NCBI RefSeq assembly: GCF_038396755.1
Contig: NZ_CP149822.1
Location: 3,410,001-3,474,000, forward strand
Length of the DNA stretch: 64,000 nucleotides
Source of the DNA: Chitinophaga pollutisoli
GTDB taxonomy: Bacteria; Bacteroidota; Bacteroidia; Chitinophagales; Chitinophagaceae
Direction of reading: 5' to 3'
Below the pieces are notes generated by a model. The model did not search any database. It was not told the origin of the DNA and was given only the letters and a program-made list of their open reading frames with translations. This document shows, piece after piece, positions 1 through 5,754 of the stretch (the stretch's first letter is position 1; each line of letters starts with the position of its first letter). A program made the position numbers and the translations under genes.

Positions 1-963
1 TTCCTCCTTACCAGTTGCTCCGGCGCGTTTTGAATTTAGTGCGAATGGGAGAGTTATCCCCGTAAGCCCACGCATTTAAATTACTTCATGCAGTGTCGGA
101 TGTAATCCAGCCATCATTGTGCATACTCGTTTGAGGTATTTCAACGGGAATGGGAATGGATTGTCAGCATTTTAGCGGCAGAGCCATGTAACAATGGTAG
201 CAACGCCAGGGATTGTCTGGTCAGTGTCGCAAAGCATCACGGCAGCATAGCACTAACTCGTCTGTATTTTCGGCGGGATCGGGATTGTCATGCAGGAATG
301 GATGCCTGGGGGATGTACAGATAGATCGTCAGGGCTGTGGTCTGGTCTGTTTTAGTAAATGTCCGAATAGAATTGCGCCAACACCATTGAGCTTATCAAC
401 GGGAAGGAAACCCATTGTCCGTAAGTGCGTAATATTTACCGGGTAATCCATATGACATGGCGGGTTGGCATCAGAGAAGTGGAGCCGGAAAATTGAGAAG
501 CTGCAAAAAGCAGGCGGTGATATGCATGTACAATCCGTTGAATGACACTTTCCGGCAAGTAAATGACTGTAACAAACTACCGCATTACGGATGCGACCAT
601 TTGAAAGGCTAGAAACGAGGTGAGGACTCTTCCTCAGGCCTCAGGTTTTATGGTTTGTTCCGGGACGAGTTAACGGGTTGAGGAGCATGAACATGCGATG
701 GCAGCAAGTGATCGAAACATCATTATGCTTTCCTGCGGGTGCTAGCGCCGGTAAGGGGAAGGTAGGTGGATGATAAACTGGGTTTTACATGTGGGTATTA
801 GTAACCCATGCGAATGGGTAATGATATGGCCTGGAGATTCCTCTCCGGGCAGTTATCCTTCGTGCCCGAAAAGTTCTTTGAAAGTTGGTAACCGGCGAAG
901 GTTAGGAAGTTATTTATATGGTGTACGTCTGATGAATGCAGTTTTACTGTAACAGAAATGCTT

Positions 964-1657
964 GCCAGGGGATTCTTCCCCAGGCAATTTTAAAACCAGG
1001 CATGCATACGGATTTGAAAGCAGTCAGGATCAGTAAATGCAATCATTTTCGTGTTGCTTGTTGAGATGATTCGTCAGGCAGTTTGATAGACAGCCATGCA
1101 AATGAATTTGAACGCAGTTTGGATAAGTGAATCCAATCATTTTGATGTTGACGGGCGACAATTCTTTTTGAGGATGTTTAAAATCAGGTATGCAGACGAA
1201 ATTGAAATTCAGTTAGGAAAGGTTAATGCAATCATTTTTCGTGTTGCCTGTTGAGATGATTCTTCAGGCAGTTTGATAGACAGCCATGCAAATGAATTTG
1301 AACGCAATTAGGATAAGTGAATACAATCATTTTACATGTTGACGGTCGGCAATTCTTTTTGAGGATGTTTAAAATCAGGTATGCAGACGAATTTGAAATT
1401 CAGTTAGGAAAGGTTAGTGCAATCCTTTTTCATGTCGCCGGTCTGGGGATCCTTTTTCAGGCTGATCAAGGCCAGGCATGCAAACGAATTTGAAACGCAG
1501 TTGAGATAGGTTAATTACATTCATTTTTCATGTTGCCGGCCTGGGGACTCTTCTTTGGGCATTTTAAATCAGGCATACGAACGAATTTGAAGCATAGTTA
1601 GGATAGGTCAAATACATACATTTTCCATATTACCGGTCTGGGGACTCCTCCCCGGGC
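964..1657. repeat. Degenerate tandem array, 94-97 bp units
   Basis: The word ATTTGAA recurs at 1012, 1106, 1200, 1296, 1391, 1488 and 1585, a spacing of 94 to 97 bp. Each unit carries a hairpin core, a GGCATGCAAACG-like segment, an AGTTAGGAT-like segment and an AATCATTTTTC-like segment. Alternate units resemble each other most (1060 with 1250; 1155 with 1346), so a roughly 190 bp dimer was duplicated in the middle. No gene function is apparent. Confidence 0.8.
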
Positions 1658-2574
1658 TCTATTTCACAAGCAAATCAACCGAGGGTAGATTTTTACGGGG
1701 TTGTAGAATCTCATCGGTTAACGCAAAACAACGCCTGGGGAATCTTCCCCGGCAATTCTATCGTAAAAAATGCATCCCGGGAAATTGGGCGAAGACACGA
1801 TACTTTGCAATCCAAAAGGCGAATGCCGGACAATGGAAAGCCGGGGGATTCTTCCTCGGGCCGTTTAAGCTCCGGGCCCAAAACGTTACGATGTGCACAG
1901 CGAAAACTATTTGAAGCGCTGAATATTGTGGCCTTGTTTCTACCGGAGATTACCGGTAAAGTTCCTGAGGTCGACAAATCGGGAGCATTACGCCTGGGCT
2001 ACCTCCGGCAAATTGCTCGCACCTACATCATTGTATGCAAAGGATGCATCTGAATGCATGCAATACTGATTCTTTGACTTTCTTAAATGATTCCCGGGGA
2101 TTCTTCTCCGGGTTAAGTTATACATATGGCAAGCCAGGAAAGGTAATCGTATCTGGATTGTATTGAGGATCGCATACCAGATGGTCGCTTAAGTTATTCT
2201 GATTCAATCGTTTGGATGATATGAAAGGCTCCGGGGATTCTTCCCTGGGCATATTCGTGACTGTGTGTAGTGACAGAGTAAATTGACCCTGCAAATCTCA
2301 GCCAGAAATTCTTTTTAAGCAAGAGGCTGGCTTGTGGCAACGATTTGTAAAGAGATGATTTCGTCCAATGGGTATTGTGGCCCAGGGATTCTTCCCCGGG
2401 CAAGTTAAAGTCTGGTTAGCCAGAAAGCCATACACGGAGGTTAGTGTGCGAATGGATGCCGAAGTCCGTGCTAAATAATACTACAAACTGGGGTTAGACA
2501 TAAACTAGCAACTTCGGGCCGGGGATTCTTCCCCGGCCAAATGATTGTTTTGGCCACGGGGTCTGTCGTTTTGC

Positions 2575-3345
2575 ATGCAAACAGGTCGGCCGGTAATACA
2601 TTTCATTAGTAAACCAGGCATTGACTAGGTAACAGAAATATCTGCAACAAAGTACTGCCATTTTACACACAAACATGTCTGTCCGGCAACGCACTTATTT
2701 AGTACTCCCACGCATTGTCTCTTTGCCAGGACTATTTGCAACAAAGTACTGAACACACAAGCCCGTTTGCCCGGAATCGCTCTTATTTGGTACAACCGCG
2801 TATTGACTTGTGGCAAGGCTATCTGCAACAAAGTACTGAACACACAAGCCCGTTTGCCCGGAATCGCTCTTATTTGGTACAACCGCGTATTGACTTGCGG
2901 CAAGGCTATCTGCAACAAAGTACTGAACACACAAGCCCGTTTGCCCGGAATCGCTCTTATTTGGTACAACCGCGTATTGACTTGTGGCAAGGCTATCTGC
3001 AACAAAGTACTGAACACACAAGCCCGTTTGCCCGGAATCGCTCTTATTTGGTACAACCGCGTATTGACTTGTGGCAAGGCTATCTGCAACAAAGTACTGA
3101 ACACACAAGCCCGTTTGCCCGGAATCGCTCTTATTTGGTACAACCGCGTATTGACTTGTGGCAAGGCTATCTGCAACAAAGTACTGAACACACAAGCCCG
3201 TTTGCCCGGAATCGCTCTTATTTGGTACAACCGCGTATTGACTTGTGGCAAGGCTATTTGCAACAAAATACCGCCATGTGAAACACAAACCTGTCTGCCC
3301 GGAAATGTTTTTTTAGTACAACCATGCATTGACTATGTGACAGAA
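2575..3345. repeat. 87 bp tandem repeat array (minisatellite)
   Basis: Six nearly identical 87 bp units start at 2734, 2821, 2908, 2995, 3082 and 3169; the only differences seen are single bases (for example TTGCGG instead of TTGTGG in the second unit). Diverged units flank them at 3256-3342 and at about 2575-2733. Identical centre and decayed edges is the pattern expected from unequal crossing-over or gene conversion. Because 87 is 29 codons, several frames on both strands stay open through the array; these are not treated as genes. Confidence 0.9.
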
Positions 3346-3831
3346 CTTTTTGCTGCTTAGTCAATTGTCGAATGTCGAAACATAGGCCTGGGGGATTCTT
3401 CTCCTGGCTTTTACACCTAATTCCGTAAGAGCTTTAATTCAAATGCAACAGTAAATGGAGCTTGGGGATTCTTCCCCAGGCAGTTGTTTTTGGGTTTTCT
3501 ATAAGGTAAAATGCGTATCCATTTCGCAAAGTTATTTGAGGGATGCTATTTCATTCACATCCAGTTGGTAAAAAACGCGTGTAATAGGGAAGGAACGATG
3601 GAACGGGGAGACTCCAGAAAATTCAGGCGAGGAGGCCAATCTGGTGTTAAAGTGTTTCGCATCGGTGAAATTTTTTTTCATAGGCATATCTGTTCATCCT
3701 AAATGTACGGCTGGCTTGCATCTGCTAGCTGCCTGTTATTGAACTTCCGGATGGTGGGGGTAAGTGCATGTCGAAGCCCTGGATCCTTATCTCGGTCTTT
3801 TTGAGTTGAAAAGGGCTTCTTTTTGTTCAGT

Positions 3832-3925
3832 TTGTTCATTCCGCGAACAATTGGTTTCAGGCTTGCCATTTTTGAAAAAATGTGCGGCGAAAACTGTTCT
3901 ATAATGCTGTTCACGGAATGAACAG
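3832..3925. promoter_or_regulatory. Two inverted copies of a 19 bp dyad
   Basis: TTGTTC-ATTCCGC-GAACAA (3832-3850) and CTGTTC-ACGGAAT-GAACAG (3907-3925) are each dyads, and the second is almost the reverse complement of the first, spacer included. The arrangement resembles a paired operator, but no gene lies immediately next to it, so a function is only inferred. Confidence 0.45.
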
Positions 3926-4002
3926 AGGGTGTATTGCCATTTTGCCACTGAACAGGCGGCCGCATTACTGATAATTTCGACTATACCTTGTATTCTTTCC
4001 AC

Positions 4003-4049
4003 AAAAAAAGGTGAGTCTGGAAGCGCATGCTCCCTGACTCACCTTTTTT
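4003..4049. terminator. Terminator between pyrH and the repeat island
   Basis: AAAGGTGAGTC pairs with GACTCACCTTT across an 18-base loop. A and T runs on both sides would allow it to act in both directions. It lies 34 bp beyond the pyrH stop. Confidence 0.8.
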
Positions 4050-4082
4050 CCGGTGGGACTTGCCGCCGTATATAATGTAAAG

Positions 4083-4796
4083 TTACCCTTTCACGAGGGT
4101 TCCAACATTTCGGCCCATGATCACATGGAGAAGGTTGCCGGGCCTGTTCATGTCAAATACAATGATCGGCAATTTATTCTCCTGGCAGAGGGTAAATGCC
4201 GTCATATCCATAACATTCAGGGATTTCTGGTATACTTCGGAGAAAGTAATCGTTTCATACTTGGTTGCACTCGGATCCTTTTCGGGGTCAGCGGTATAAA
4301 TACCATCTACCCGTGTGCCTTTCAGGATCACATCCGCCTGGATCTCAATTGCCCGGAGCGATGCAGCAGTATCCGTTGTAAAGTACGGGTTCCCGGTGCC
4401 GGCGCCGAAAATCACGACACGCCCTTTTTCAAGGTGGCGGATAGCACGGCGGCGGATGTAGGGTTCCGCGATTTGCTCCATTTTAATGGCAGATTGCAGG
4501 CGGGTATACATGCCCACCTTCTCCAGGCCGCTCTGCATGGCCATGCCGTTAATAACGGTGGCCAGCATACCCATATAGTCGCCCTGCGCACGTTCGATCC
4601 CGGTTTCCGCTTCATTCATACCCCGGTAAATATTACCGCCGCCGATCACGATGGCCACCTGAACGCCAAGGTCGGTAACCGATTTAATATCGTGGGCATA
4701 CTGGGAAATTACCTTCGGGTCAATTCCATAATTACTATCTCCCATCAGAGATTCACCACTCAGCTTGAGCAGGATTCGTTTGTACTTTGGCAACAT
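4083..4796 (-). CDS. pyrH: UMP kinase
   Basis: Uridylate kinase phosphorylates UMP to UDP with ATP in de novo pyrimidine synthesis in the cytoplasm; bacterial members are hexamers. The amino-acid-kinase fold is shown by KLSGE at residues 11-15, GGGN at 52-55 and [12 protein letters not shown] at 131-142. At 237 residues it has the normal length. The start MLPKYKR is chosen because the only longer reading would begin inside the predicted promoter at 4851-4858. It follows tsf, as is common in bacteria, but a terminator and a new promoter in the gap indicate independent transcription. Confidence 0.97.
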
Positions 4797-4820
4797 GTCA
4801 ACTATGATTATGAGTAATTC

Positions 4821-4848
4821 GCAGATTTTGTTAAATATACAAATCTGC
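4821..4848 (-). promoter_or_regulatory. Stem-loop at the 5' end of the pyrH transcript
   Basis: GCAGATTT and AAATCTGC form an 8 bp stem with a 12-base AT-rich loop. On the minus strand it begins 2 bases after the predicted -7 box, so it would sit at or very near the mRNA 5' end, about 25 bases before the start codon. Confidence 0.5.
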
Positions 4849-4850
4849 CT

Positions 4851-4881
4851 CAAAATTATCCCCTGTTATCGTAAAGGCAAA
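4851..4881 (-). promoter_or_regulatory. Promoter of pyrH
   Basis: Reading the minus strand, TTTG (4881-4878), a 19 bp spacer and TAATTTTG (4858-4851) match the Bacteroidota -33/-7 consensus exactly. The -33 element is part of the T run that ends the upstream tsf terminator. Confidence 0.7.
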
Positions 4882-4885
4882 AAAA

Positions 4886-4908
4886 GGAGAGAAATTTTCA
4901 TTCTCTCC
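4886..4908 (-). terminator. Terminator of the rplM-rpsI-rpsB-tsf transcript
   Basis: GGAGAGAA and TTCTCTCC form an 8 bp stem with a 7-base loop. On the minus strand it is followed by seven T (4885-4879). It lies 22 bp after the tsf stop. Confidence 0.85.
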
Positions 4909-4929
4909 TCTATATTTTGCTAAAAGCGA

Positions 4930-5754
4930 TTAACCTAAAGCTACGCGTTTGAAGCTGGACACCTTCAGTTCTGCATCCACAGATTTCAGATGGTCGGCTA
5001 CGGATTTGTTGCCGTCCTTAACGAAAGCCTGGCCCAGCAGGGTGCTTTCCTTCAGGAATTTGTTGATTTTACCGGCAGCGATTTTTTCCGCCATTTCAGC
5101 AGGTTTGCCTTCGGCTTTGATCTGCTCAATAGCGATTTCTTTCTCGCGGGCAATGGTTTCGGGGGCGATACCGTCGGCGTCGATAGCGATGGGGCTCATA
5201 GCCGCGATCTGCATAGCGATATCCTTACCGGTTTCTTCGGAAACAGGCTTGCTGAAACCAACCAGTACGCCCATGCGGTAGTTACCGTGGATGTAAGCGG
5301 TTACGCTGGCTGCGTCCACTCTTTCGAAGCGGCTCAGGGTGATTTTTTCACCGATTTTAGCTACCTGGTCGTTCACCTTGTCGGCAACGGTAGCACCGTC
5401 GAGGGGAGCTGCGTTCAGCTCTTCAACAGACTGGGTATTGTTAGCCAGCGCCAGGTCGGCGATGGACTGCGCAAATTTCACGAAATCTTCGTTCTTGGCC
5501 ACAAAGTCGGTTTCGCAGCTCAGCAGCACCACCACACCGGCTTTACCGTCGGCAGTGGTTTTTGCGATCACAACACCTTCTTTGGTTTCGCGGTCGGAGC
5601 GGAGAGCGGCTACTTTCTGGCCTTTCTTGCGCAGATAATCTACTGCTTTTTCGAAATCGCCGTCAGTTTCCACGAGTGCTTTTCTGCAATCCATCATACC
5701 GGCTCCGGTTTGCTGACGCAGTTTATTTACATCAGCTGCTGTAATTGTTGCCAT
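4930..5754 (-). CDS. tsf: Translation elongation factor Ts
   Basis: EF-Ts is the guanine-nucleotide exchange factor that recycles EF-Tu in the cytoplasm. The N-terminal UBA-like domain (about residues 1-45, with TGAGMMDCRKAL near 16-27) and the signature TDFVAKNEDF (about 81-90) contact EF-Tu and release GDP. The 274-residue length is normal. It follows rpsB on the same strand, separated by a stem-loop, and is last in the ribosomal-protein operon before a strong terminator. Start MATITAADVN is the only sensible one. Confidence 0.97.
   Translation of the reverse strand: MATITAADVNKLRQQTGAGMMDCRKALVETDGDFEKAVDYLRKKGQKVAALRSDRETKEGVVIAKTTADGKAGVVVLLSCETDFVAKNEDFVKFAQSIADLALANNTQSVEELNAAPLDGATVADKVNDQVAKIGEKITLSRFERVDAASVTAYIHGNYRMGVLVGFSKPVSEETGKDIAMQIAAMSPIAIDADGIAPETIAREKEIAIEQIKAEGKPAEMAEKIAAGKINKFLKESTLLGQAFVKDGNKSVADHLKSVDAELKVSSFKRVALG

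Follow-up and report, generated by a model that had tools for sequence, protein, structure and literature searches.

A REP-like hairpin array beside a nuclease-dead RAYT-like gene in Chitinophaga suggests a former enzyme serving as a hairpin-binding protein

The stretch of DNA analysed here, called the window throughout, comprises 64,000 nt of the Chitinophaga pollutisoli genome (NZ_CP149822.1, positions 3,410,001–3,474,000, forward strand). Near its start lies a gene-free island carrying a row of short hairpins, and just outside it lies a relative of the REP-associated tyrosine transposases (RAYTs; REP, repetitive extragenic palindrome) whose nuclease centre is lost and which the initial annotation of the island had missed. 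We propose, at a probability of about 0.6, that the island serves a domesticated, nuclease-dead RAYT as its array of REP-like hairpins. In some Chitinophaga soil bacteria the dead gene stands beside a hairpin row protected by selection, which suggests that the former enzyme may now serve the cell as a hairpin-binding protein.

The hairpin family occupies the + strand of window positions 600–3500, where about 18 copies had been placed by the initial annotation at 621..3481. Searching the window with GGGGATTCTTCCCC and allowing up to three mismatches gave 26 matches where 7.5 are expected (0 of 100 shuffles as high), and 12 of the matched places are hairpin copies at 622–3477 on the + strand. 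From ten loci beside pyrH (UMP kinase), nine with the dead RAYT-like gene and one (G003) without, 78 candidate hairpins were collected; a core filter removed 14, and the remaining 64 copies gave an alignment (A2) and from it a covariance model (R1). The consensus, GCC-N-GGGGA-NTCY-TCCCC-N-GGC, combines an NTCY tetraloop and an A-T closing pair with an upper stem rich in G-C, a sixth pair that is irregular and a lower stem that varies. The loop, originally described as TTCT-like, is NTCY in nearly all 64 copies (TTCT 36, TTCC 14, GTCT 6, CTCT 3, ATCT 3, TCCT 1 and CTCC 1), and no conserved tetranucleotide such as GTAG lies 5′ of the stem in any consistent fashion among them.

A scan of the 6.08-Mb genome with R1, in which 150 of 3158 first-look candidates were scored, returned 23 matches at E ≤ 10. 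All 14 matches with E < 0.1 lie on the + strand at window positions 615–3484, and the next best (E 0.17) lies elsewhere in the genome; weak copies elsewhere could escape such a scan because of the fraction of candidates scored. About four further copies, decayed and recognized by eye within 95–97-nt repeats at 1046–1366, make up the original count. The hairpins are thus like REPs in being short imperfect palindromes that fold as one strand, but they are not dispersed through the genome in many copies: the 14 matches sit inside one 2.9-kb stretch, and the genome-wide scatter that would have refuted the initial annotation's reading was not seen. Rfam gave four matches (E 0.1–0.67) in window positions 1–5000, each far under its gathering score, one of which (HLE, 1650–1761, − strand) overlaps the array. 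No blastn match to island positions 600–3600 was found in 50,697 phage records.

The proposal that the stem arms change in pairs was borne out. Among the 59 distinct copies, 91.1% of pair cells in A2 are paired, 47 pair cells are changed on both sides where shuffles give 15.7, and the covariation score reaches 0.361 versus 0.240 (0 of 500 shuffles as high for each). The outer pairs, together with a scan by the 8-nt core alone, are the fairer evidence, because the five loop-proximal pairs were required when copies were chosen. Comparison with related genomes points the same way. With gaps counted as differences, hairpin identity in the three closest island pairs is 95.5, 86.4 and 77.3% versus 71.4, 52.2 and 31.5% for the far spacer, and in six wider pairs it is 58–80% versus 26–46%. 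The three close comparisons give 32 orthologous hairpin pairs, in which 264 of 288 positions in stems and 288 of 512 in flanks are unchanged; changes that touch pairing preserve it in 15 of 22 cases in stems versus 27 of 153 in flanks (p 3e-6). A full double change occurs at one stem position only; most kept pairs are kept through G-T.

The sites are also strongly asymmetric with respect to strand. Choosing by the core GANTCYTC alone gives 82 + strand sites and 4 − strand sites in seven islands. Pair positions 3–9 of the island sites hold 424 Watson-Crick, 72 G-T, 11 A-C and 67 other cells, and 69 control sites outside the islands hold 124, 49, 58 and 252, respectively. Folded as RNA, 70 of 82 sites are more stable on the + strand and 9 on the − strand; with DNA parameters, the figures are 58 and 21. 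These data support selection on the hairpins as a folded single strand, one half of the initial annotation's suggestion of a folded RNA or cruciform DNA. The other half found no support, nor did folding of the − strand: a cruciform is unsupported because the wobbles (72 G-T versus 11 A-C) fit folding of the + strand.

The RAYT-like gene lies at G000:C1:3409254-3409903 (window −746 to −97, + strand). Its product is predicted to have the Y1/HUH fold of REP-associated transposases, with 4er8 as the top structure match. The REP_Tyr_transpos profile is matched under its cut-off; none of seven orthologues (28–59 bits) reaches the curated 80 bits of NCBIfam NF047646, and the copy next to the window scores 22 bits. 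In all 15 pyrH-linked proteins the HUH motif reads [EQ]-x-H, Glu or Gln replacing the first His, and the Y--xNP motif lacks both its Tyr and its Asn, the latter being a metal ligand in E. coli TnpAREP according to PMC6006769. Among 108 homologues, 31 have Glu or Gln at the first His and no Asn, and 29 of these also lack the Tyr; the other 77 have H-x-H and the Tyr motif where the stretch is present, with departures in P0044, P0053, P0097, P0103 and P0107. A quick tree, which retained the motif columns and placed the long row L186 poorly, has a branch with support 96 that splits 34 live rows from 40 dead and four odd rows. Ratios of nonsynonymous to synonymous substitution (dN/dS) are 0.163, 0.120, 0.150, 0.155 and 0.247 in five of nine pairs, and these codon comparisons show purifying selection keeping the dead gene. 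Apart from the low-quality genome G098, the other translated family members are open. A second Chitinophaga RAYT lineage that has lost HUH and Tyr (L182, L183 and L184 in G015, G093 and G088) sits at other loci and has no R1 hairpins.

The dead gene and the hairpins occur together. pyrH is present in 60 of 60 genus genomes, and in the roughly 11 kb read beside it 11 genomes carry the dead gene; in a twelfth, G015, a gene of another lineage of the family lies 7 kb away in opposite orientation. R1 matches at E < 0.05 were found in 9 of the 11 dead-gene regions versus 1 of the other 49 (G003, with a lone hairpin), a co-occurrence with Fisher p 4e-8 for genomes that are not independent and matches of which some are the same palindromes on the other strand at lower score. 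The fairer test is given by the dead-gene loci outside the R1 training set, and all four have R1 matches. Counted over 79 genus genomes, the pyrH-linked dead gene is present in 15, 13 of them with R1 matches. Among 23 named genome loci, several from genomes also in the genus set, R1 reached E < 0.05 in eight of nine from Chitinophaga (L133-L136, L138-L140 and L147, the remaining one being C. alhagiae, L137), while the 14 remaining loci had no match at that level. All 27 loci read from the family search beyond the genus are live, and R1 found nothing at them. The hairpins lie downstream of the dead gene, on its coding strand and on a single side. The first follows the stop codon by about 12–70 nt, by eye, in the short loci (G021, G075, G089, G033, G062 and G085) and by 127–966 nt in the array genomes. 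Presence at the same locus in relatives, with pairing-preserving arm changes, supports the earlier idea of an RNA array or a protein-binding array.

How might such an arrangement have arisen? An ancestral RAYT of the family is presumed to have bound REP hairpins and cut them. Within a single Chitinophaga lineage, a descendant fixed beside pyrH would have lost the cutting chemistry, with the first His of HUH becoming Glu or Gln and the Tyr and metal-binding Asn being replaced, while keeping the predicted fold; the downstream coding-strand hairpins are its predicted cognate binding sites. RAYTs recognize REPs through the loop or through irregularities of the stem, together with a 5′ tetranucleotide, according to PMC8266576. 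A strict loop and an irregular sixth pair that are kept, with no 5′ tetranucleotide, are what is expected if binding survived and cutting did not. It is quite probable that the dead RAYT-like protein binds the hairpins. If it does, the folded strand is somewhat more probably RNA than anything else, whether as the 3′ part of the transcript of the gene itself or as an array RNA of its own; RNA would be the most likely ligand because of the coding strand, the downstream position and the wobble-rich stems. Given an RNA ligand, the array would therefore be a feedback sponge or a scaffold for the protein. A tentative suggestion for the outcome is that the protein is autoregulated or titrated by its RNA. 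Equally tentative is the idea that a HUH transposase-like enzyme without its nuclease centre has become a hairpin-binding RNA protein with a private REP-derived RNA array, a self-contained ribonucleoprotein in which the array could be sponge, scaffold or feedback sensor.

Several points weigh against a dead RAYT with its own array. Two of the five covariation measures show no excess over the shuffles, namely the pairs with a double change (5 versus 4.5, 290 of 500 as high) and the further pair types (17 versus 15.6, 123 of 500 as high). Pairing of the inner five pairs was itself a selection criterion for the A2 copies, both members of each orthologous pair were required to fit a purine/pyrimidine core, a filter biased towards preserved pairs close to the loop, and in the six wider island pairs the aligner may have paired non-orthologous copies. 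R1 was searched in loci that trained it, ten of the regions being the training set. In individual genomes the association is imperfect: the dead-gene locus of G032 has a hairpin with a core mismatch (R1 E 0.18), G012 has an intact gene and a degenerate hairpin only, and in G003 a single hairpin stands without a detectable gene. Of the 31 dead homologues, P0020 and P0024 have a Tyr at the catalytic position, without the His or Asn, and dS was not estimable in four of the nine gene pairs. In the window genome, the gene is missing 1 nt at an A7 run close to its start (G000:C1:3409254-3409325, window −746 to −675), so that it is frameshifted and either truncated, with a possible TTG restart, or recently broken, unless the deletion is a sequencing slip; the frame of the near relative P0019 is intact over the A7 stretch. 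The DNA after the hairpins is T-rich and terminator-like (4.5 T in 10 nt versus 2.9 random). Finally, the present data may fit an RNA and a single-stranded DNA (ssDNA) ligand alike.

With an ssDNA ligand, the same protein–hairpin pair would act without RNA, the dead RAYT marking or protecting the array on one DNA strand, for example in replication or in transcription bubbles. This is rather unlikely in our judgement. G-T pairs, which are better tolerated in RNA than in DNA, make up 72 of 496 paired cells; the hairpins are downstream on the coding strand and, in short loci, close past the stop codon, as in a 3′ untranslated region; and in the 5 of 11 loci with both sides in view, live relatives have inverted flanking REPs instead. 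The appeal of ssDNA is that the + strand is the more stable with DNA parameters too (58 of 82) and that known RAYTs recognize ssDNA REPs in a strand-specific manner (PMC8266576).

Two further explanations dispense with binding altogether. Intrinsic terminators or 3′-end stabilizers between convergent genes, unrelated to the protein, would account for A-rich DNA before and T-rich DNA after the hairpins, for TGTTTTTT-like tails on some copies in G021, G075 and G089, and for nine terminator-like sites in window positions 1–4100 where 4.8 (sd 2.0) are expected. However, a terminator would work without a fixed NTCY loop, an A-T closing pair or an array of 14; a T run of at least 5 in the next 10 nt follows only 6 of 82 sites (7% versus 2% random); and no other genome copy appears below E 0.1 among the matches listed. 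We consider this explanation improbable. Debris of a mobile repeat, also raised by the initial annotation, is probably right as ancestry. The REP-like anatomy, the decayed copies and local 95–97-nt duplications in the window and the frameshifted gene of the window genome are what a drifting, functionless fossil of REP or insertion sequence expansion would leave. As a description of the present state, however, it is very hard to credit, with hairpins better conserved than spacers, pairing-preserving changes in the stems and a dN/dS near 0.15 for the dead gene.

The layout of the island, with E values from the whole-genome R1 scan and all hairpins on the + strand, is as follows. A gene-free leader (1..614, + strand) runs from the RAYT-like gene to hairpin 1 (615..642, coordinates including 3-nt flanks, E 0.078), followed by hairpins 2 (826..853, E 4e-5) and 3 (961..988, E 1.2e-4). 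The decayed hairpins in 95–97-nt repeat units, seen by eye and missed by R1, lie at 1056..1081 (direct repeats D2/D5/D7), 1149..1175, 1246..1271 and 1340..1366. Then come hairpins 4 (1438..1465, E 0.055), 5 (1536..1563, E 4.7e-4) and 6 (1633..1660, E 3e-4), the last having the same stem and a similar upstream flank in L073, L074, L076 and L075, and hairpins 7 (1730..1757, E 0.0046), 8 (1837..1864, E 7.8e-4), 9 (2089..2116, E 0.0018), 10 (2226..2253, E 6.6e-4), 11 (2377..2404, E 0.015) and 12 (2514..2541, E 3e-5). A tandem minisatellite of about eight 87-nt units (2637..3332) interrupts the array before hairpins 13 (3384..3411, E 0.0026) and 14 (3457..3484, E 6e-4); among the seven islands compared it occurs in this genome's alone, with none in the other six. 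It is open in several frames, and the 188–234 aa open reading frames (ORFs) of the island are frames through it; with no convincing gene found there, the description of the island as gene-free holds.

Beyond the array, an ORF at 4083..4793 (− strand), which we take to be pyrH from its sequence and gene order, is the convergent syntenic anchor in relatives. On the other side, the left neighbour of the dead RAYT gene is a TPR histidine kinase gene (L031 15825-17741, Pfam), and a similar ORF is seen by eye in several relatives. Upstream of pyrH, at L031 15130-15480 and in relatives, are short proteins that look bacteriocin-like by eye, with tails rich in glycine and a conserved leader that ends in a double glycine (MENLQVQNFGCQELDA..EVNGG).

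The closest known systems are the REPtrons of the E. coli and Pseudomonas types, in which RAYT (TnpAREP) and REP are paired. The likeness lies in the protein fold (4er8), the sub-cut-off REP_Tyr_transpos profile and short-loop hairpins with a mid-stem irregularity beside the gene. The Chitinophaga system differs in that its protein lacks the catalytic His, Tyr and Asn, and its hairpins lack a conserved 5′ tetranucleotide and are confined to one locus, one strand and one side of the gene. Subclass 2.6 of the Y1 HuH proteins (Quentin et al. 2018) is found in Bacteroidetes and has the Y motif YIH[QN]NP and atypical flanking secondary structures (PMC6006769). That motif resembles the Y[MI]HxNP of the live sister rows. 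The Chitinophaga lineage differs in that it is without the core and has no hairpin copy below E 0.1 elsewhere among the matches listed.

The nearest relatives are live Bacteroidetes sister RAYTs, with HUH and Tyr intact, unlike the dead family. At eight of 11 of their loci the gene has hairpins nearby of the form GGTCGGTG-TTNT-CACCGACC or GGTTGG, most of them with a T-rich loop of four bases, and in the five loci that show hairpins on both sides these make an inverted pair around the gene. R1 finds nothing at E ≤ 1 in the live sister loci. The pattern GGTYGGYGNNNNCRCCRACC, with loops unrestricted and of several kinds, has 46, 40, 15, 9, 6, 2 and 0 sites in seven sister genomes. The dead family has kept the four-base T-rich loop, but its hairpins lie downstream on the coding strand rather than as inverted flanks; we infer that they descend from REPs of the live-sister type. 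The two live RAYTs with 46 and 40 exact-pattern palindromes (L148 and L149, in G106 and G107), spread over many contigs in G106, possibly represent an uncatalogued Bacteroidetes REP family.

Two more distant parallels can be drawn. CsrB/RsmZ-type RNA sponges, comparable only in the way they work, repeat a single protein-binding hairpin many times within one RNA; the protein family is another, and the RNA of the array described here is putative. TldR proteins are nuclease-dead TnpB regulators, TnpB-type and RNA-guided. They too are transposon-derived nucleases kept after cutting was lost, but the partner here is a Y1 transposase-like protein. The name TldR occurs in the abstract of PMC13418256.

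RAYTs are described, in PMC8266576 and PMC6006769, as domesticated transposases that still cut ssDNA. We found no report of a cutting-deficient RAYT lineage with kept hairpins in the open-access literature searched, which leaves most subscription papers outside. A lineage that has no cutting chemistry and whose protein and hairpins are nevertheless under selection allows binding to be told apart from transposition, and it opens a binding function to direct test.
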